From Candidatus Saccharimonadota bacterium (GTDB lineage Bacteria > Patescibacteriota > Saccharimonadia > Saccharimonadales > Saccharimonadaceae): a stretch of 50,846 nucleotides of DNA. Shown in pieces: positions 2,988 to 50,846 of the stretch (positions are counted from its first letter, which is position 1; each line of letters begins with the position of its first letter). The stretch covers positions 1 to 50,846 of the forward strand of contig WRMD01000006.1 in the NCBI GenBank assembly GCA_009777315.1, written 5' to 3'. Both the position numbers and the translations under genes were made by a program. The notes under the pieces are model-generated. The model saw only the letters and a program-made list of their open reading frames with translations. It made no database searches and was not told the origin of the DNA.

Positions 2988-3875
2988 ATGGGGCGGTTGA
3001 TCCTCGCCGTGAGTGGCGGAGTGGACTCGGTGGTGATGCTCGATAAGTTGGTTCGGGAGGGCGCTTTTGGTGGCGGGGCAGGGGTTTTGGTAGCGCATTT
3101 TAACCATGGTATTAGGGGTGAGGAGGCGGACGGTGATGAGCGGTTCGTGCGGGGGTTGGCGGAGAAATATGAGCTGGAATGCGTGGTGGGGCGGGCTGTT
3201 TTGGGTGAGGGGGTGAGTGAGGCGGAGGCGCGTGAGGCGAGGTGGCGGTGGTTGGATGGACTGCGAGGGGAGGGCGAGGTGGTGGCGGTCGCGCATCATT
3301 TGGATGATCTGGTGGGGAGTGTGGTGATTAATCTACTGCGGGGGACGGGCTGGCGGGGGCTGGCGGTGATGAATCGTCCTGGGGTGGTGCGGCCGCTACT
3401 CGAGTGGACGAAGGTGGAGGTTTATGAGTATGCGATGGCGAAGGGGCTGGAATGGGTGGAGGATGGGACGAATAGTGATTTGCATTATTTGCGGAATCGA
3501 TTGCGGGGGCGAGTGGAGGGGTTGCCGATAGAGGTGAAGCGAGAGATTCTAGACTTGCGCAGTAAGCAGGCTGCTCTAGCTCGTCTCCTCAGACTCGATG
3601 TCGACTTTGCCTATCGCCATGGGGAAGTCGCATCTGACTCTCGGACTGCTGTCCTCCGAGACGTCTTCGGAGATCGAGCTAGGAGCCACCTGCTTGATGA
3701 TCAAGTTTTGGATGAGCTACTGAGGGCGTGGTTGGAGGAGAATGGTATTAGAACGACGAGGCCGACGAGGGAGCGGCTACTGGAAGCTATTCGGACATAC
3801 CGGAGCGGGAAGAGATTCAACTTGCCGGGGGGGCGGCTGGTGGTGATGGAGCGGGATGGTTTTAGGCTGGATTAG
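2988..3875 (+). CDS. tilS: tRNA(Ile)-lysidine synthase, with in-frame palindromic repeat
   Basis: Modifies C34 of the CAU-anticodon isoleucine tRNA to lysidine using ATP and lysine, making AUA decoding specific. The PP-loop ATPase motif SGGVDS is at residues 9-14, and HFNHGIRGEEADGDE (about 37-51) is the conserved second motif of the family. At 295 aa it is a short form. Residues about 193-236 are encoded by a copy of palindromic repeat family A (3565-3694), where the otherwise very G-rich coding strand becomes C/T-balanced. The frame stays open through the insertion, and the C-terminal part (GKRFNLPGG, LVVMERDGFRL) resumes afterwards. Follows clpP closely. Confidence 0.9.
   Translation: MGRLILAVSGGVDSVVMLDKLVREGAFGGGAGVLVAHFNHGIRGEEADGDERFVRGLAEKYELECVVGRAVLGEGVSEAEAREARWRWLDGLRGEGEVVAVAHHLDDLVGSVVINLLRGTGWRGLAVMNRPGVVRPLLEWTKVEVYEYAMAKGLEWVEDGTNSDLHYLRNRLRGRVEGLPIEVKREILDLRSKQAALARLLRLDVDFAYRHGEVASDSRTAVLRDVFGDRARSHLLDDQVLDELLRAWLEENGIRTTRPTRERLLEAIRTYRSGKRFNLPGGRLVVMERDGFRLD
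3565..3694. repeat. Palindromic repeat family A inserted in tilS coding sequence
   Basis: The core 3588-3668 is clearly related to 11598-11676 (shared CAGACTCGA, CCTATCGCCAT, CTCTCGGACTG and TCCTCCGAGACGTCTTC). The outer arms differ in sequence from the other copies but still pair: AGCAGG (3565-3570) with CCTGCT (3689-3694), CTAGCTCG (3576-3583) with CGAGCTAG (3675-3682), CTCC with GGAG. Two inner hairpins remain: GACTT/AAGTC, and CTCGG/CCGAG. Fold kept while bases change argues for a structured element. The arrangement resembles the Rickettsia palindromic elements known to insert in frame in genes. Confidence 0.85.
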
Positions 3876-4134: not shown

Positions 4135-4190
<56 letters not shown>

Positions 4191-4525: not shown

Positions 4526-6211
4526 ATGAGCAAAAGCACAACTATCAACGAAACGGAAAGAGCAGAATTAGTCCAGCATTTGCCTTTGGCTAAAATCCTG
4601 GGTGTGGTCGTGGCCGCAAGTGCTTTCACCGTACTAACAGCAGGGATTATCAGTAGGCTGGCTCCGGCTAACGCCGAGAGTGGCAGTAGTATTGTCGGAG
4701 CAAGTATCGACTATACACTGTCGATGACGCTAGGTGCGGCGGATGCGACTTCTGCCTGTACTGCTGCCACGGGCGGTAACGTCAGCATTCCGGTAGATGT
4801 ACCGAACGGCAACACTTACTTTGCTTGTCTTAACGCTAATGTCGACACTAACTCAAGCTGGGGATACTCCCTAAGCATAGAGACAGATACGGCTGCCTTG
4901 ATTGGCGACCCAGTTGGGCAGATTAACGCAACTTCTGGGACGATTATTTCCCCGAGCCAGCTAGGCACTAACACCTGGGGCTTCTGTATCCCGGATGATC
5001 GGATGACTAACGTAACTAATGGCTTTAACAGCGGCCTAACTACAGCCTGTGGTGGTGCTAACGGCAACACATCGACAGCACTGCCTTACGCGGCTGTACC
5101 GACTACGGCTACACTAGTCCGTGACGTAGATACTCTGCCAAGCACGGCGGCTCTCCAGAACACCCCGATTCGTTTTGGGGTGCGACCGACTGCTACCTTG
5201 GCGGCCGGTACCTATACGGCTAACGTGACTCTTACCGCCAGCGTCAATGAGTCACCAATAACCTACATGCAGAGTTTCACCTCAGCGATGTGCAACATGC
5301 TATCAGTAGGTGATGTAGTTGACCTAGTAGACGCCCGTGATGGTAAGGAGTATCGTGTAAGAAAGATGCCCGATAACAAATGCTGGATGATGGATAATCT
5401 GGCCTACACCGGCGATGGTAATAACACGTTCGGTGACGTAGTACCGAGCAACTCAGCCGGTGTAGGGGGACTACGCGAAGTAACCGTCAATACCGACTGG
5501 AATAACCCTAGCGGTGCTAACAACAGTACCAGACGCTGGGCTAATAACTCTAACCTAGCTGGTACCACTACCACCTGCTCCCCGACCACAGCGTCTGGTA
5601 CTGGTGTAATGACTTCGATCTGTGGCGACCAAATCCTTTACAACTGGTGTGCAGCACTAGGTCTAGATACTGGTACTACTCCTACTTGTGCAGGTGTCTC
5701 TAACACAACAGCAGCAGGAGCAGGTACAGGTATGTCTAGTACAGGTACAGTAGGTGCTACAGGCGGTGTAGGCGGTGAGTCCCTCGGCTCAGGTGGTACA
5801 TCTATCTGCCCAACAGGCTGGAGAATCCCCAGAGGCCGAGATAACTCTTCGGGTACTAACGACGCTAACAATGAATGGGCTATACTCAACGGTAGCTTCA
5901 ACGCTGGCGCTCCAGCAGCAGCTAACGTCACAACCGGTGCAGGATTCATGGGTTACTGGCAACCAGCTGGTACAAGTGTAGGTACGACCGGCATCCAGCT
6001 TGGTGGCGGTGCCTTTGGTACAGTGTCAGCCGGCAACGTCAGTACGACAGGCAATCTCGGCAGTCAGTCCACGAGCGCGAACTGGTGGACATCCTCCCTC
6101 AACTCTGCTACCAACGCATACAGAACGTACGTGAATAGCACGAGCGTCAACCCCGGCACGAACGGCAACAATAAGGCCTTCGGGTTTTCTGTCCGCTGTG
6201 TGTTCCCTTAG
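4526..6211 (+). CDS. DGR target: membrane-anchored surface protein with FISUMP domain
   Basis: 561-aa surface protein and the intact target of the retroelement. Residues 24-45 form a hydrophobic signal/anchor; the rest is Thr/Ser/Asn/Gly-rich and predicted extracellular. The FISUMP domain (Fibrobacter succinogenes major paralogous domain, C-type-lectin-like fold) starts near residue 269 with DVVDLVDARDGKEYRVRKMP, continues with NKCWMMDNL, and ends in FSVRCVFP. Residues 496-561 are encoded by VR1. Eight residues there differ from the template repeat (506, 512, 513, 517, 535, 540, 547, 552); every one is Asn (AAY) in the template. Start supported by AGGAGG 6 nt upstream. Base composition lacks the strong coding-strand G excess of most neighbours. 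A role in ligand or host-cell binding is inferred from known DGR targets. Confidence 0.93.
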   Translation: MSKSTTINETERAELVQHLPLAKILGVVVAASAFTVLTAGIISRLAPANAESGSSIVGASIDYTLSMTLGAADATSACTAATGGNVSIPVDVPNGNTYFACLNANVDTNSSWGYSLSIETDTAALIGDPVGQINATSGTIISPSQLGTNTWGFCIPDDRMTNVTNGFNSGLTTACGGANGNTSTALPYAAVPTTATLVRDVDTLPSTAALQNTPIRFGVRPTATLAAGTYTANVTLTASVNESPITYMQSFTSAMCNMLSVGDVVDLVDARDGKEYRVRKMPDNKCWMMDNLAYTGDGNNTFGDVVPSNSAGVGGLREVTVNTDWNNPSGANNSTRRWANNSNLAGTTTTCSPTTASGTGVMTSICGDQILYNWCAALGLDTGTTPTCAGVSNTTAAGAGTGMSSTGTVGATGGVGGESLGSGGTSICPTGWRIPRGRDNSSGTNDANNEWAILNGSFNAGAPAAANVTTGAGFMGYWQPAGTSVGTTGIQLGGGAFGTVSAGNVSTTGNLGSQSTSANWWTSSLNSATNAYRTYVNSTSVNPGTNGNNKAFGFSVRCVFP

Positions 6212-6233
6212 TTTAGTTAGCTATTCCGTCTAG
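6011..6233 (+). repeat. DGR variable repeat 1 (VR1)
   Basis: 223 bp aligned without gaps to the template repeat at 32447-32669 (reverse strand). I count 12 differences: 11 at template adenines (mostly AAC to GGC, AGC, TAC or TTC) and one template G that is A here (6036). The first base is G of GCC in GGGAFG; the repeat runs past the stop codon (6209-6211) to CCGTCTAG. The invariant 3' part from GGGTTTTCTG onward corresponds to the initiation-homology side of DGRs. Confidence 0.96.
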
Positions 6234-9583: not shown

Positions 9584-11542
9584 ATGTCTAAGTCTAATCT
9601 AAAGATACTGGAGGTTGATCCGTTGCTACGGCCTTACGCGCGGCATATTGAGCGGCGGATGGCGAAGTATGAGAAGGCGCGGGGGGTTGCGGCGCTGTTG
9701 TCTGATGTGGCGAACGGGCATATGTTTTATGGATTTCATGAGACGGATGATGGGCGGGGGAAGAAGGGCTGGGTGTATCGGGAATGGGCGCCGGGGGCGG
9801 AAGCTATGGCGCTGGTGGGGGATTTTAATGATTGGAATGATCAGACGCATCAGATGAAACGGGGTGAAAACGGTAACTGGGAGCTAGCGGTGGATGGGGA
9901 AATCCCGCATGAGTCGCGGGTAAAAGTGCGGGTAGCGAAGGGTGGGCGGACACTGGAGCGGATTCCGTTATATGCGCGGCGGGCGGTGCAATGTGAGCAG
10001 ACGAAGAACTTTGATGGGGTGATATGGTGTCCGGCGAAGGAATATGTGTGGAAAAATAAGGCGCCAAAGCGGGCGGCGAAGACACCGCTACATATCTATG
10101 AATGTCATGTGGGGATGAGTGGCGAGGAGGCGAGAGTTTCGACGTTCCTAGAGTTTACAGAGAAGGTTTTGCCGCGGATTAAGAGGCTGGGCTATAATGC
10201 GATTCAGGTGATGGCGGTGCAGGAACATCCGTATTATGGGAGTTTTGGCTATCAGGTGTCGAACTTTTTTGCGGTTTCGAGTCGGTTTGGGACGCCGGAT
10301 GAGTTTAAGGCGTTAGTGGATGCAGCGCATGGGATGGGAATCGCGGTGATTATGGATTTGGTGCATTCGCACATGGTGAAAAATACGGCGGAGGGGCCGG
10401 CGGAATTTGACGGGACGGACTATATGTTGACTCATAGTGGTGAAAAGGGGACGCATTCGGCTTGGGGTACGCGGTTGTTTGATTATGGCAAGAGCGAAGT
10501 GCAGCATTTTTTGTTGTCGAATATTAAATACTGGTTGACAGAATATCGGCTGGATGGGTTTAGGTTTGACGGGGTGACGTCGATGTTGTATCACCATCAT
10601 GGGCTGGAGGAGGCGTTTGACCACTATGATAAGTATTTTACAATGGCGACGGATGAGGAGGCGATTACGTATTTGCAGCTGGCGACGAGCTTGGCGCGCG
10701 AGGTGAACCCGGAGGTGATTTTGATTGCTGAAGACATGAGCGGGATGCCGGGGATGTGTCGGCCGGTGGCGGAGGGGGGAATTGGCTTTACATATCGGCT
10801 GAATATGGGGTTGCCGGACTTTTTTATTAATTTGGTGCAAAAACCGGATCATTATTGGTCGGTGAAGGCGCTTTGGCATGAGCTGACAACGCGGCGGGCG
10901 GGGGAGAAGACGATTGGTTATACGGAGAGTCATGACCAAGCGCTGGTGGGGGATAAGACGTTGATGTTTTGGCTGGCGGATGAGGAGATGTACTGGGCGA
11001 TGGATAAGGGGTCGGCGAGTTGGCGGGTGGATCGGGCGATGGCGTTGCATAAGATGCTACGGCTGATTGTTGGGGCGGCGGGGGGTGATGGGTATTTGAA
11101 TTTTATGGGGAATGAGTTTGGGCATCCGGAGTGGATTGATTTTCCGCGGGAGGGGAATGGGTGGAGTTATCAGTATGCGCGGCGGCAGTGGAGTTTGGCG
11201 GATAATTCGTTTTTGCGCTATGAGTATTTGGAGAAGTTTGATGAGGCGATGCTTTCGTTGCTCTCTTCGTCTGGGCTGGCTCGGTTTGAAACTGAGGTGA
11301 TAAAAGTGGCGGAGACGCCGAAGATTATCGCGTTTCGGAAGGGTGGTTACGTGCTCGTGTTTAATTTTCATTGGGCACGGGCGAGTGCGGTGGCGCTGGA
11401 TGGGATTTCTGGGGCGAAATTGGTGTTGCATAGTAATTGGCGGAGGTTTGGCGGGAATGTGGATGAGAAGACGAATATTGGGGTTCTGCGGAAGAATGGG
11501 CTGATGATGGCGCCGCGGAGTGCGGTGGTGTTGAAAGTATAG
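9584..11542 (+). CDS. glgB: 1,4-alpha-glucan branching enzyme (GH13, eukaryote-like type)
   Basis: 652-aa GH13 enzyme that introduces alpha-1,6 branches in glycogen-like glucan. N-terminal CBM48-like domain (about 60-125, EWAPGAEAMALVGDFNDWN), catalytic barrel with nucleophile Asp329 (GFRFDGVTS), acid/base Glu383 (LIAEDMSG) and Asp451 (YTESHDQAL). The strings GVTSMLYHHHG and NFMGNEFGHPEWIDFPREGNG are characteristic of the eukaryotic-like subfamily (GH13_8), not of the E. coli type. TATAAT at 9572-9577 is exactly six nt before the ATG, with no Shine-Dalgarno: likely leaderless. No glgA or glgC is visible here. Confidence 0.94.
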   Translation: MSKSNLKILEVDPLLRPYARHIERRMAKYEKARGVAALLSDVANGHMFYGFHETDDGRGKKGWVYREWAPGAEAMALVGDFNDWNDQTHQMKRGENGNWELAVDGEIPHESRVKVRVAKGGRTLERIPLYARRAVQCEQTKNFDGVIWCPAKEYVWKNKAPKRAAKTPLHIYECHVGMSGEEARVSTFLEFTEKVLPRIKRLGYNAIQVMAVQEHPYYGSFGYQVSNFFAVSSRFGTPDEFKALVDAAHGMGIAVIMDLVHSHMVKNTAEGPAEFDGTDYMLTHSGEKGTHSAWGTRLFDYGKSEVQHFLLSNIKYWLTEYRLDGFRFDGVTSMLYHHHGLEEAFDHYDKYFTMATDEEAITYLQLATSLAREVNPEVILIAEDMSGMPGMCRPVAEGGIGFTYRLNMGLPDFFINLVQKPDHYWSVKALWHELTTRRAGEKTIGYTESHDQALVGDKTLMFWLADEEMYWAMDKGSASWRVDRAMALHKMLRLIVGAAGGDGYLNFMGNEFGHPEWIDFPREGNGWSYQYARRQWSLADNSFLRYEYLEKFDEAMLSLLSSSGLARFETEVIKVAETPKIIAFRKGGYVLVFNFHWARASAVALDGISGAKLVLHSNWRRFGGNVDEKTNIGVLRKNGLMMAPRSAVVLKV

Positions 11543-11543
11543 T

Positions 11544-11732
11544 ATCAAAATAGTTAAACACTCCTAGCGCAAAAGCCTCACCAAGGTACTAATTTCATTC
11601 AGACTCGACGTCGCTTCATCCTATCGCCATAGGTGAAGCGCGTCTGGCTCTCGGACTGCCGTCCTCCGAGACGTCTTCATGAAATTGTACCTTGATACGG
11701 CTTTTGCATATTAAGCCCCTAACTATTTTGAT
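11544..11732. repeat. Palindromic repeat family A, complete copy
   Basis: 189-bp element built of nested inverted arms: ATCAAAATAGTTA (11544-11556) with TAACTATTTTGAT (11720-11732), GCAAAAGCC (11569-11577) with GGCTTTTGC (11699-11707), AAGGTAC (11583-11589) with GTACCTT (11687-11693), AATTTCAT with ATGAAATT. The tip is a branched end of two hairpins, CGCTTCA/TGAAGCG (11612-11640) and CTCGG/CCGAG (11650-11670). Starts immediately after the glgB stop. No transposase. Copies: 3565-3694 (in tilS), 50710 to window end, and a degenerate half at 1-95. Confidence 0.9.
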
Positions 11733-11784
11733 GCAAACTTATCAGCCTCTCCTATCCCAACCTAACCCACACCCTCCCCACCCC

Positions 11785-11996
11785 CTACGGGTAGACACAG
11801 CGGAGGGAGAAGCCTGCCTGTTTGTTTGTAGCACTTGCTTGGGTGCCGGGAACTATTGCTGCAACGGTCAGGTTTACATAAGTTGCATGTAAGCTCGAAT
11901 TGAGAGACGCAGGAAACCAAGCAGCGCGACCAGATGGCTCATTTGACCCCAAGTTACCGTTGAAAATGCCGGCCGAGACAGTGGCGAAGGAGGGCT
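11785..11996 (-). pseudogene. Second orphan FISUMP C-terminal cassette
   Basis: Reading the minus strand in one frame from about 11996 to the TAG at 11785-11787 gives PSFATVSAG at the start, AAWFPASLNSSLHATYVN in the middle and GFSLRCVYP at the end. This is clearly homologous to the FGTVSAG...WWTSSLNSATNAYRTYV...GFSVRCVFP frame of VR1. There is no start codon and no N-terminal domain. The cassette is close to VR length, and its borders resemble those of the 191-412 fragment. The only longer frame here on the plus strand (11692-11892) does not look like a protein. Confidence 0.7.
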
Positions 11997-12232: not shown

Positions 12233-13249
12233 ATGCAAAAAATGCAAGAGAATGTGCCGATAAAAGACCTGACAACGATGAAAGTGGGTGGGCCGGCGCG
12301 ATATGTGCAAGAGATTACTTCGGCGAAGCAACTGCCGGCGGCGTATCAGTTCGCGCGGGAAAATGAATTGCCGGTGTGGGTACTGGGAAATGGGGCGAAT
12401 ACGTTAGCGAAAGATGAGGGGTTCGGGGGGCTGGTTCTGCTGTCGAGGTTGAAAGGGGTGAGCTTGAAGGTGTCGGGGAATGATTTGCTGGTGGCTGCCG
12501 CTGCGGGGGAAGAAATGGATGACGTGGTAGAACAGACGGCGAAGAAGGGCTATACGGGGCTGGAAGGGTTGACCGGAATCCCGGGGACGGTGGGGGCGGC
12601 GCCGGTGCAAAATATCGGGGCGTATGGGCAGGAGATCAAGGACACGTTGGTGAGTATAGAGGTGTACGACGCGAAGACGGGTAAGACGAAGGTGATTCCG
12701 AAGGCGGCTTGTAAGTTTGGCTATCGGGAGAGTATTTTTAATACGGGGGAAGACGCGGGCAGGTATTTTATTTTGAAGGTGCACTTTAAGCTGAGGAAGG
12801 GTCAGATGAAGCCGCCGTTTTATGTGTCGCTGAGTACGTATCTTGAGCTGCATGGGATAACGGATTATTCGCCGATGAGTATTCGGAAGGCGGTGGCGGC
12901 GGTGCGGGCGGAGAAGTTGCCGGATGTGAAGGTGCAACCGAGTGCGGGGTCGTTTTTTAAGAACGTGTATCTAAGTGATTATGAGGCGGCGAAGGCGCGA
13001 GCGAAAGGGATTCAGGTGTGGCTGGAACGGGGGAAGAATATCGTGCCGAGTGGGTGGTTGATTGAGCAGACGGGGTTGAAGGGGCAGAGTTTTTATGGGT
13101 TTAAGGTGTGGGATAAGGCGGCGCTGATTTTGGTGAATGAGGGGGGCGGGGACTATGTGGATTTGGCGAAGGCGCGGCGGGAGATTGTGAGCAGGGTGGA
13201 GGCGAAGTTCGGCTACACTCTGGAGCAAGAGCCGATGGAGATGGAATAG
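12233..13249 (+). CDS. murB: UDP-N-acetylenolpyruvoylglucosamine reductase
   Basis: FAD enzyme of peptidoglycan precursor synthesis that reduces UDP-GlcNAc-enolpyruvate to UDP-MurNAc with NADPH. FAD-binding loop GNGANTLA at 52-59, GLTGIPGTVGAAPVQNIGAYGQEI (112-135), Tyr164-Arg165 (FGYRES) and catalytic Ser240 (AGSFFKN). The 338-aa length and Tyr-loop fit the E. coli-like type I. TATAAT lies at 12217-12222 and TATAAG at 12223-12228, ten and four nt before ATG, with no Shine-Dalgarno. Stop overlaps the start of folD (TAGTG). Confidence 0.93.
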   Translation: MQKMQENVPIKDLTTMKVGGPARYVQEITSAKQLPAAYQFARENELPVWVLGNGANTLAKDEGFGGLVLLSRLKGVSLKVSGNDLLVAAAAGEEMDDVVEQTAKKGYTGLEGLTGIPGTVGAAPVQNIGAYGQEIKDTLVSIEVYDAKTGKTKVIPKAACKFGYRESIFNTGEDAGRYFILKVHFKLRKGQMKPPFYVSLSTYLELHGITDYSPMSIRKAVAAVRAEKLPDVKVQPSAGSFFKNVYLSDYEAAKARAKGIQVWLERGKNIVPSGWLIEQTGLKGQSFYGFKVWDKAALILVNEGGGDYVDLAKARREIVSRVEAKFGYTLEQEPMEME

Positions 13250-30106: not shown

Positions 30107-30449
30107 GTGAAGTCCAACTCTAATAAGCTTAATTCAGGCCTAAAGTCTAGTATCAACCCTTACTACACTTCTACCAACAAGAACTCTAATACCTCTACTA
30201 ATACTACTGCTAACACTACTACCTCCCCCCACCCAACTGGGTGGCGGTGCCTTTGGTGCAGTGTCAGCCGGCAGCGTCAATACGGCAGGCACTCTCGACA
30301 ATCAGTCCACGTACGCGTTCTGGTGGACATCCTCCCTCAGCTCTGCTACCAACGCATACAGGACGTACGTGACTAGCACGGGCGTCAACCCCGGCACGGG
30401 CAGCTTCAATAGGGCCGGCGGGTTTTCTGTCCGCTGTGTGTTCCCTTAG
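30107..30449 (+). pseudogene. Second DGR target: short, frame-broken FISUMP C-terminus with VR2
   Basis: A GTG-started frame (30107) encodes an Asn/Thr/Ser-rich stretch ending TTTSPHPTG. The VR2-containing FISUMP C-terminus (QLGGGAFGAVSAG to SVRCVFP, stop 30447-30449) is in another frame, open from 30144 but without a start. Removing a single C from the CCCCCC run at 30225-30230 joins both into one protein of about 113 aa reading TTTSPTQLGGGAFG. So the gene is either off by one base in a homopolymer (phase-variable or sequencing error), or a decayed target. It lacks the large N-terminal region and membrane anchor of the 4526 gene. Confidence 0.7.
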
Positions 30450-30471
30450 TTTAGTTAGCTATTCCGTCTAG
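30249..30471 (+). repeat. DGR variable repeat 2 (VR2)
   Basis: 223 bp aligned without gaps to the template repeat. I count 21 differences and every one is at a template adenine (to G, T or C; e.g. AAC to GGC, TTC, TAC, GAC; AAT to ACT). No change at a template C, G or T was found. This is the pattern of adenine-specific mutagenic retrohoming. The 3' end at CCGTCTAG is identical in position to VR1. Confidence 0.96.
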
Positions 30472-30624: not shown

Positions 30625-31374
30625 GTGGACGAAAAGTTTACACAGATTAAGAATAGTAATGACTTGGTGAGGTTTGAGGAGAATAACTTTGACAAGATAG
30701 TGTTGATGAGGAGCGGTAACTTTTGGGCAGGATACGATAACACAGTGTGGTTTCTAGAGAAGCTACATCACGTCACAAATAAAAAACGAAAGATCAGGTA
30801 CGACAGGAAGTTTAAACGAAACATACGGTTGGCGGCGTTCCATATGGATGCGTTTGTGCCGATCAAGGAGAAGCTGCTAAGTAGGAAGCTGGAGCTGATT
30901 CATGATACGGAGGAGATAGTTGCTTTTGCCCTACCCGAGAAGGTGCCGCCGGAGCAACTGAGGAGCTGGAGATGCTCAGAAGAAGATCGAATCAAAAATG
31001 TGGAGTCAATGTTAATGCCAGATAGATTAGTTGATCGCGAGGCGATCCAGCGGTTAGTAGAGTTAGGTAAGCATATCAGTGATACGATTCAGCACGATAT
31101 GCCGAAAGAGTTGCGAGAGACAATGGGGCGTGAGCTTTTGACGTGGGCGGCGAGGATACTAAGCCGATATACGGAACTGGAGATCGGAAGACGAACGAAA
31201 GAAGAGCGAAGGGAGATTGCGACGACATTAGTCAAAGATGTCCAGAGTTTGTCGGTGTTGATGATGATGGCGTTCAACTCGGGTACGGTTGGTAGCATAA
31301 GGGCGATGAAGGTTGGCCAGCAGCTGCATGAGATTGCTGGCATAGTGCATGACAAATACATTCGTATCGCGTGA
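30625..31374 (+). CDS. DGR accessory protein with MutS domain I-like N-terminus
   Basis: 249-aa basic protein in operon with the reverse transcriptase (overlap 26 nt). Residues 25-46 (IVLMRSGNFWAGYDNTVWFLEK) resemble the start of MutS domain I (the lmRxGdFYExfgxDA stretch). The rest is helical and charged, with a C-terminal bundle-like part (about 135-245). DGRs usually carry an accessory factor such as Avd, an HRDC protein or a MutS-like protein; by position and N-terminal resemblance this is probably of the MutS-like kind. Avd binds RT and template RNA, so a role in cDNA priming is inferred. A paralogue without RT lies at 45055-45708. GTG start. Confidence 0.75.
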   Translation: MDEKFTQIKNSNDLVRFEENNFDKIVLMRSGNFWAGYDNTVWFLEKLHHVTNKKRKIRYDRKFKRNIRLAAFHMDAFVPIKEKLLSRKLELIHDTEEIVAFALPEKVPPEQLRSWRCSEEDRIKNVESMLMPDRLVDREAIQRLVELGKHISDTIQHDMPKELRETMGRELLTWAARILSRYTELEIGRRTKEERREIATTLVKDVQSLSVLMMMAFNSGTVGSIRAMKVGQQLHEIAGIVHDKYIRIA

Positions 31375-32467
31375 GTACTTTGATGTACCGCTGTTAGCGA
31401 CCAAGCTGATGGAAGCGTTTGTTGAAGCGCGGAAGAATAAGCGGAATACATACAATGAATGGGCGTTTGAAAAATACGCCCTATTGTATATCTGGGATTT
31501 GGTGCATGAAATCAATAACCGGACTTATAGGCCGGGGAGTAGTAGGGCGTTTATCATACGTGACCCGGTGATTCGGGAGATTTTTGCGGCGGACTTTCGG
31601 GATAGGTTGGTGCATCATTTGCTGTTTAATATGACGGCGGATTGGTGGCAAAGACATTTTATCTACGATTCGTATGCTTGCCAGAAGGGTAAGGGGACGC
31701 TGTTTGGGGTGAGGCGGATGTATAAGGCGATGGCCAAAGCGAGTAAGAACTTCAAGAGTGAGGTGTGGGTGTGCAAGCTGGATTTGCAGGGTTACTTCAT
31801 GAGTTTGCCGCGGACGAAGATCTATGAGCGAGCGCTTTGGGGGTTGGGGCAGCAGTACGAGAAGGACTCGCTGGAGTACAGCTTGTGTAAGTTTTTGTGG
31901 AAGGTGGTGATTTTTGATGACCCGACTAAGAATGTACGGATTAAGGGGAGTCTTGAGGAATGGAATGATTTGCCGGATAGTAAGAGTTTGTTTTATGCGC
32001 CGAAAGGGTGCGGGATTGTAATTGGCAACCTGACGTCGCAGTTATTGTCGAATATCTATATGGATGTGGTCGATCGGTTTATTGTGTTTGATTTGGGTTG
32101 TAAATATTATGGTAGGTATGTGGATGACTTTTGGATGATGGGGGAGAAGGATGAACTGCTGGCGCATGTCGACAAGATAAGGGATTATGTAGCGAGTTTG
32201 GGCCTGAAGTTGCATCCGAAGAAGGTGCACCTGCAGCCGGCGGAGCGGGGAGTGAGTTTCTTGGGTGCGGTGATATATCCGCATCGGATCGTGCCGGGGA
32301 AGCGGATCAAAGCCGGGATAAATCGGGCGACGGCGAAGTTGGTGGCGGACGAAGAAGGAGCGTGGGACACGCTCCAGTCGTATCTGGGGTTATCGATGCA
32401 TTTTCGGTCGGCTAAGGTGTGGGAGCGAGCTTTAAAACACACAAGTCTAGACGGAATAGCTAACTAA
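31349..32467 (+). CDS. DGR reverse transcriptase
   Basis: 372-aa reverse transcriptase that copies the template RNA with adenine-specific errors. Finger/palm motifs: CKLDLQGYF with Asp145 (motif A), IGNLTSQLLSNIYMD at 225-239 (the IGxxxSQ form typical of DGR RTs, not QGxxxSP of group II introns and retrons), catalytic YVDD at 257-260 and LKLHPKK at 275-290. No maturase or endonuclease domain follows, and the length is normal for DGR RTs. The last seven codons lie inside the region shared with the TR 3' end, on the opposite strand. Confidence 0.96.
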   Translation: MTNTFVSREYFDVPLLATKLMEAFVEARKNKRNTYNEWAFEKYALLYIWDLVHEINNRTYRPGSSRAFIIRDPVIREIFAADFRDRLVHHLLFNMTADWWQRHFIYDSYACQKGKGTLFGVRRMYKAMAKASKNFKSEVWVCKLDLQGYFMSLPRTKIYERALWGLGQQYEKDSLEYSLCKFLWKVVIFDDPTKNVRIKGSLEEWNDLPDSKSLFYAPKGCGIVIGNLTSQLLSNIYMDVVDRFIVFDLGCKYYGRYVDDFWMMGEKDELLAHVDKIRDYVASLGLKLHPKKVHLQPAERGVSFLGAVIYPHRIVPGKRIKAGINRATAKLVADEEGAWDTLQSYLGLSMHFRSAKVWERALKHTSLDGIAN

Positions 32468-32895
32468 ACTAAGGGAACACACAGCGGACAGAAAACCCGT
32501 TGGCCTTATTGTTGTTGTTCGTGCCGGGGTTGACGTTCGTGCTATTCACGTTCGTTCTGTATGCGTTGGTAGCAGAGTTGAGGGAGGATGTCCACCAGTT
32601 CGCGTTCGTGGACTGATTGTTGAGATTGCCTGTCGTATTGACGCTGCCGGCTGACACTGTACCAAAGGCTGAAATAGAAACCCGAAAGCTAGCGAGAAGG
32701 CGCACTCATTGGTCTAATTGCCCGTGGGCGGAATAGACGTGTCTTTATGATAATAAAAACCAGGACTGACTCTAGGCTATACGCCTAAGCGCCAGTGTGC
32801 ACCTGCCTTGTGTTAAAGTGCACATCGTCAACTTGCAAAGCGTCGCCGAAGCGGCGCAGAGACAAATCTTTAGATGGCAGGAAGCTCGTGCTCCC
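32440..32895 (-). ncRNA. Predicted DGR template RNA
   Basis: Minus-strand transcript predicted from an extended -10 promoter (TGGTATAAT; -10 at 32902-32907) and running through about 225 nt of leader into the TR. It has no plausible gene, has several inverted stretches (e.g. GCCGCTTCGGC), and ends at an unknown point in or beyond the RT 3' end. DGR template RNAs need sequence beside the TR for cDNA priming, so the flanks are expected to be functional. Exact ends are not determinable here. Confidence 0.6.
32447..32669 (-). repeat. DGR template repeat (TR)
   Basis: Minus strand, 223 bp, from GCCTTTGGT (32669) to CCGTCTAG (32447). Rich in AAC/AAT codons at exactly the positions varied in VR1 and VR2. 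Convergent to the RT gene, overlapping its last 21 bp. The homology with the VRs stops sharply at both ends. It reads through as a frame ending SVRCVFP but has no start signal, so it is a template, not a gene. Confidence 0.96.
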
Positions 32896-50639: not shown

Positions 50640-50709
50640 TTTATACCTCCAGGATGTCTATATCTTACGCGGTGTGTATTTGAGAGTCAAGATGAGATGT
50701 GAGCATAGT

Positions 50710-50846
50710 ATCAAAATAGTTAGGTACTTCTGGCGCAAAACCCTCACCAAGGTACTAATTTCATTCAGACTCGACGTCGCTTCATCCTATCGCCATAGGT
50801 GAAGCGCGTCTGACTCTCGGTTTGCCAACCTCCGAGACGTCTTCAT
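50710..50846. repeat. Palindromic repeat family A, copy cut by the window end
   Basis: Begins with ATCAAAATAGTTA (50710-50722), as does the copy at 11544, and is nearly identical to it through AAGGTACTAATTTCATTCAG and both inner hairpins. It ends with the window at CTTCAT, so the right arms are not visible. Its TCGGTTTGCCAACCT stretch matches window positions 25-39 rather than the 11.6-kb copy. Confidence 0.9.

Follow-up and report, generated by a model that had tools for sequence, protein, structure and literature searches.

A dispersed palindromic DNA element read in frame in tilS of a Candidatus Saccharimonadota bacterium, with arms that appear to be copied from neighbouring DNA

The element in tilS and its copies on the contig

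The window, meaning the whole analysed stretch of 50,846 nucleotides, carries the tRNA(Ile)-lysidine synthase gene tilS on the forward strand at 2988-3875 (PF01171, E-value 2.9e-37; PDB 1wy5 TilS, 2.3e-26), a gene that is present in 58 of 61 relatives. This gene hosts a palindromic element at 3563-3694, read in frame and composed of outer arms and a core, which is matched by the covariance model of the family at 3577-3678 with 104.8 bits. The left arm (3565-3588, AGCAGG..CTAGCTCGTCTCC) lies over codons K-Q that are conserved in relatives and pairs with the right arm (3667-3694, TTCGGAGATCGAGCTAG..CCTGCT). Between them, the core at 3589-3668 is common to all copies and 78-85 % identical to five other ones. 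Alignments define two hairpins in it, namely hairpin A (3597-3634) with a variable, covarying stem and the hexaloop TCGCCA, and hairpin B (3639-3661) with the pattern TCTC-xxxx-TGCC(T)-xxxx-TCC-GAGA. All of these features are on the forward strand.

The initial annotation had described paired arms, a sharp switch in base composition and an in-frame position within tilS, and all three observations were reproduced. AGCAGG at 3565-3570 pairs with CCTGCT at 3689-3694 and CTAGCTCG pairs with CGAGCTAG, and the reading frame is open throughout the element. The GC skew changes from +0.55 on the left to -0.08 inside and +0.49 on the right, whereas the GC content is nearly unchanged across the boundaries. 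Folded as DNA, the 132-nt element shows a long stem whose core is a three-way junction and reaches -36.6 kcal/mol, compared to -19.9 +/- 2.95 kcal/mol for dinucleotide shuffles (z = -5.67), a value equalled by none of the 200 shuffles.

The proposal that about 44 residues of TilS derive from the element was found to be too simple. Between the anchors K(KQ) and L(LDD), the protein of the window has 43 residues, compared to 26-38 (median 30) in 28 relatives. Since the relatives already hold about 30 residues between the same anchors, the net gain is about 13 residues. Part of the span replaced or overlaps a variable loop that was already there, with the left arm overlying conserved codons. As TilS of relatives does have sequence at this site, the observation named in the initial annotation as refuting an insertion was in part made, and the insertion is not a clean one of 44 residues. 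That the element is an insertion follows from its dispersed copies, the empty and filled trmD loci described below and the occurrence of both orientations at the tilS site.

The core was confirmed to be shared with copies at 11.6 kb (85 % identity) and 50.8 kb (81 %), and a search with its 80 nt found three more matches in the genome, on contigs C5, C8 and C21. The intergenic copy at 11575-11705 (forward strand; covariance model 11587-11688, 114.6 bits), situated between the ORF at 9584-11542 and the ORF at 12233, has different arms (CAAGGTAC..AATTTCA / TGAAATT..GTACCTTG). The copy at 50700-50846 (forward strand; 50753-50846, 99.8 bits) is truncated by the contig end. At 1-75, also on the forward strand, a repeat search revealed the right half of a diverged copy of the same type as L133 and L148, truncated by the contig start. 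Since both contig ends (1 and 50846) lie inside copies, the assembly was probably interrupted by these repeats, which would imply more copies than were counted. In the whole genome, the covariance model detects 38 copies with a size of about 100-135 nt. They are mostly intergenic, the clear genic ones being those in tilS and in a der-like gene on C21. The arms differ from copy to copy, yet they pair within each copy.

Several other features of the window were recorded. A long (TC)n run at 4138-4190 lies inside a 178-aa ORF between tilS and a FISUMP-like gene. A diversity-generating retroelement consists of a reverse transcriptase (31349-32467, forward strand), a template repeat on the minus strand (32447-32669) and two variable repeats (6011-6233 and 30249-30471), the first of which is located at the 3' end of the FISUMP-like gene; 32 of the 33 mismatches between its repeats fall on template adenines. 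Stretches at 170-400 and 11760-11960, as well as in L003 and L006, have CCTCCCCACCCCCTACGGGTAGACACAGCGGAGGG and GAGACAGTGGCGAAGGA in common with variable sequence between them, and adjoin intergenic copies of the element. For a single stretch, 11740-11960, the minus strand was translated and reads as a FISUMP-like C-terminus (..SLRCVYP*). These stretches may be relics of variable genes.

Distribution of the family and pattern of change

A covariance model with 33 pairs was built from six copies. Of the 394 genomes sampled from the same taxonomic family, 181 contain a match to it, and these belong to 9 of 61 genera that comprise Saccharibacteria, Nanosyncoccus and relatives; as weak single matches are included, the genus counts are approximate. 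The number of copies per genome reaches 18 in G130, 14 in G115, 11 in G025, 9 in G214 and 5 in G009. Among 295 genomes sampled across the order, matches were confined to the same taxonomic family. A search of 84,980 species with a 23-base core pattern found almost exclusively Candidatus Saccharibacteria among the matches listed, including Nanosyncoccus alces. The pattern matches in Reyranella and Streptomyces were rejected as chance, with about 17 bits in the covariance model. A contig labelled as 'Nomurabacteria' (L277) holds a true copy with 90 bits, and its label may be wrong. Nearly all of the compared genomes are metagenome assemblies. In the open-licence literature, we found no earlier description of such elements for Saccharibacteria.

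Copies occupy intergenic positions as well as positions in essential genes, where they are read in frame. A search of other ORFs located them in tilS, uvrB, trmD, truB, ligA, leuS-like, der-like and other conserved genes, where the hosts were named by sequence motifs and BLAST clusters, with a Pfam check for tilS and clpP. At the same protein position of tilS, the element is in forward orientation in the window and in reverse orientation in G130 and G115. Both orientations at one protein position were also found in truB, trmD, leuS-like and other genes. The core is not specially stop-free in its six frames, with a mean of 4.3 open frames for genic copies vs. 3.9 for shuffles.

The core folds into two small conserved hairpins closed by a short stem, which together with the arm show strong covariation. 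Among 84 aligned copies, 94.3 % of the cells are paired, compared to 69.2 % after shuffling and at most 46.5 % after sliding, and 714 cells have changes on both sides. As this alignment was fitted to the covariance model, these values lean towards the model structure. A MAFFT alignment of six sequences, made without the model, agrees on the pairing, the structure having been chosen from the same six sequences. The changes pass over wobble pairs almost completely: hairpin A has 1166 Watson-Crick, 6 G-T and 4 A-C cells, and the arms have 447, 6 and 20, respectively. Within host ORFs, the sense strand has 48 G-T cells and 49 A-C cells, and both orientations occur with similar frequency (44 vs. 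39). The ORF set may include some spurious members, longer than 180 aa, from GC-rich sequence.

RNA pairs that are compensated point by point should pass via G-U, according to a view summarised in PMC8794818. Since the pairs change almost without wobble and without strand preference, and since the core is inverted at one site between two close relatives, the pairing is inferred to be maintained by fold-back or template switching at the DNA level and not by selection on the transcript. The arms had been called compensatory in the initial annotation. They do differ between copies and still pair, but an arm copied from the other arm or from the host flank fits better than compensatory point mutation. 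One observation is left over, since in the arm alignment the element strand has more A-C (109) than G-T (49) cells, an excess for which a strand-neutral model gives no account.

Insertions in one loop of TrmD

The gene trmD of the genus g2 was used as a test case. TrmD was matched in 158 of 174 genomes, and in a large minority of them the match is split at one loop. Seventy loci, picked non-randomly by their split matches, were read, of which 31 have a short loop and 39 an insertion. All 39 insertions are in frame and free of stop codons, and the 36 that were measured are 20-85 aa long. The core of the tilS element is present in 21 of them, and the others hold unrelated hairpin families. One of these (L215, L226, L229, L243 and L244; core GACTTGAATTTTCAAGCACGTCAT...) also occurs elsewhere in g2 and is dispersed: a DNA search detected it in 11 of 24 genomes, with a maximum of 13 matches per genome. 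Additional hairpin inserts with other cores were seen in the same loop in L216/L220, L218/L223/L241 and L228/L237. Insertions can be nested (L221 and L229) or shrunken to remnants (L194 and L236).

In these inserts, the distal arm is an inverted repeat of the upstream host codons. In the filled loci, the far end of the insert pairs on average with 6.25 nt of the upstream host codons, and 0.19 nt of the downstream host codons are paired. The upstream bias was measured in this one gene and may reflect a constraint of the TrmD protein. Two closely related loci, L231 and L219, are identical in 489 of 534 flanking bases, whereas their inserts align in inverted orientation (score 54.5 inverted, 9 forward). 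The right arm of L219 carries an inverted copy of host CTAGAGAT that extends further out than in L231. Template switching between inverted repeats has two hallmarks, the inversion of the spacer and the homogenisation of the arms (PMC8604942). Both are seen here, as an inverted spacer at the orthologous sites of L231 and L219 and as arms homogenised without wobble intermediates. The opposite orientation of L231 and L219 could also stem from replacement by another copy instead of inversion.

Proposed fold-back copying, alternative explanations and related elements

Taken together, the feature in tilS is probably (about 0.68) a copy of a dispersed hairpin DNA element whose core enters a loop, whose second arm is made by fold-back and whose arms are maintained by template switching. 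In this mechanism, the core would enter a tolerant surface loop of a gene. As the core ends pair, the 3' end of the strand could fold back and be extended on the adjacent host strand, so that the second arm would be created as an inverted copy of the host flank. Subsequent template switching from arm to arm would keep the two matched and sometimes flip the core. Within genes, only in-frame and stop-free outcomes would survive, and the element would then be translated as an extra loop, while old copies would shrink to short remnants by internal deletion. The creation of hairpins by template switching has a precedent (PMC8794818), as do fold-back inverted insertions of 5-34 bp in yeast (PMC11724301). 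A point against fold-back is that the nearest pair of an empty and a filled TrmD locus has a flank identity of 84.5 %, so that the pre-insertion sequence is not readable base by base. A more far-reaching and tentative possibility is a class of mobile DNA that brings no more than a hairpin core, builds its long stem at each new site by fold-back copying of the target, requires no transposase and uses essential genes of its host as permissive sites.

Two candidates for mobilisation were considered and rejected. The presence of a reverse transcriptase does not follow that of the element, as it is absent from the element-bearing genomes G001, G011, G025, G110 and G214. For carriage by phages, one viral contig matched the core pattern and failed the covariance model.

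Among the alternatives, a classical MITE or REP-like element that is moved by a transposase into pre-existing palindromes such as terminators would account for the dispersal of similar cores and for the terminator-like arms of several intergenic copies (L053 and L055). It is unlikely, as the outer arms differ between copies and as pre-existing palindromes of 15-25 bp would be unlikely in coding targets; in the short-loop TrmD loci, only 0-7 nt of host sequence pair. Furthermore, Y1, the transposase family searched, is absent from about 11-12 element-bearing genomes (G000, G001, G009, G025, G110, G115, G130, G214, G198, G256 and G085), among them element-rich ones, and present only in G020. Maintenance of the stem by selection on a regulatory or processing RNA through compensatory mutations would explain the very strong covariation and the conserved loops TCGCCA and TGCC. 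This is quite improbable, however, because G-U intermediates are almost absent, the mRNA strand has no excess of G-U over A-C, the orientation in genes is unbiased, and one and the same TrmD loop accommodates cores that are unrelated but share the arm architecture. Moreover, the element has no match in Rfam at the gathering score or at E<1.

The stability of such hairpins inside essential genes could suggest an intron-like or bypass element, excised from the transcript or jumped over by the ribosome. The consistently frame-keeping and stop-free TrmD inserts would be needless if the element were removed, and both orientations occur, which makes this highly improbable. Finally, fold-back chimaeras are a known artefact, and the use of metagenome assemblies and the copies at contig ends would fit an origin from assembly or amplification. 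Such an origin is extremely improbable, since among the matches listed the same core is found in many species from independent projects, the TrmD inserts are without exception in frame and stop-free, and orthologous sites are common to several species.

To our knowledge, palindromic elements within coding sequences have been described mainly in Rickettsia and Wolbachia. The elements of these bacteria are 100-150 bp long palindromes, comprise several families per lineage and are inserted into pre-existing ORFs without a shift of frame, at sites exposed to solvent, and different families have been reported at one site (PMC3767692, PMC10969869). The suggested likeness to Rickettsia palindromic elements holds for a dispersed multi-copy palindrome of matching size that is inserted in frame in pre-existing, essential genes of CPR bacteria; it does not extend to a clean insertion of 44 residues. 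In function, the element works like the Rickettsia elements, without being filed as one of them. The phylum differs, and features seen here that may set the element apart are site-specific outer arms, both core orientations per site and a far arm that repeats the host flank. REP/RAYT elements and MITEs are likewise short palindromic repeats with many copies. Here, the arms are not conserved as terminal inverted repeats, only an inner GGACA/TGTCC-type stem being common, and a Y1 transposase is absent from the own genome (G000). As for a target-site duplication, many copies have TC on both sides of the core (TC ... TC), but as part of an internal loop, and no near-identical empty site was found for comparison.

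Quasipalindrome template-switch mutation exhibits the same arm homogenisation and spacer inversion (PMC8604942) and both makes and keeps hairpins (PMC8794818), but it acts on local sequence, whereas a dispersed conserved core is involved in Saccharibacteria. The fold-back insertions at double-strand breaks in yeast share the inverted flank copies of 5-34 bp and the priming by short inverted homology, but come from a repair assay without a dispersed core (PMC11724301). Coding palindromes in the mitochondria of Nematomorpha are likewise long inverted repeats inside translated genes; there, both arms encode conserved protein regions, whereas the second arm is additional sequence in Saccharibacteria (PMC6649704).

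The elements of Saccharibacteria are an independent case and occur in very high numbers in a phylum of streamlined parasites, in which hundreds of species offer orthologous sites with and without an insert. This allows spread by selfish transposition to be tested against template switching by polymerases. Covariation that resembles selection on RNA but is better explained by DNA copying calls for caution in covariation-based RNA discovery. As neighbouring host DNA appears to be the template of their long matching arms, the elements appear to act as generators of new protein segments and show concretely where new loops of essential enzymes can come from.
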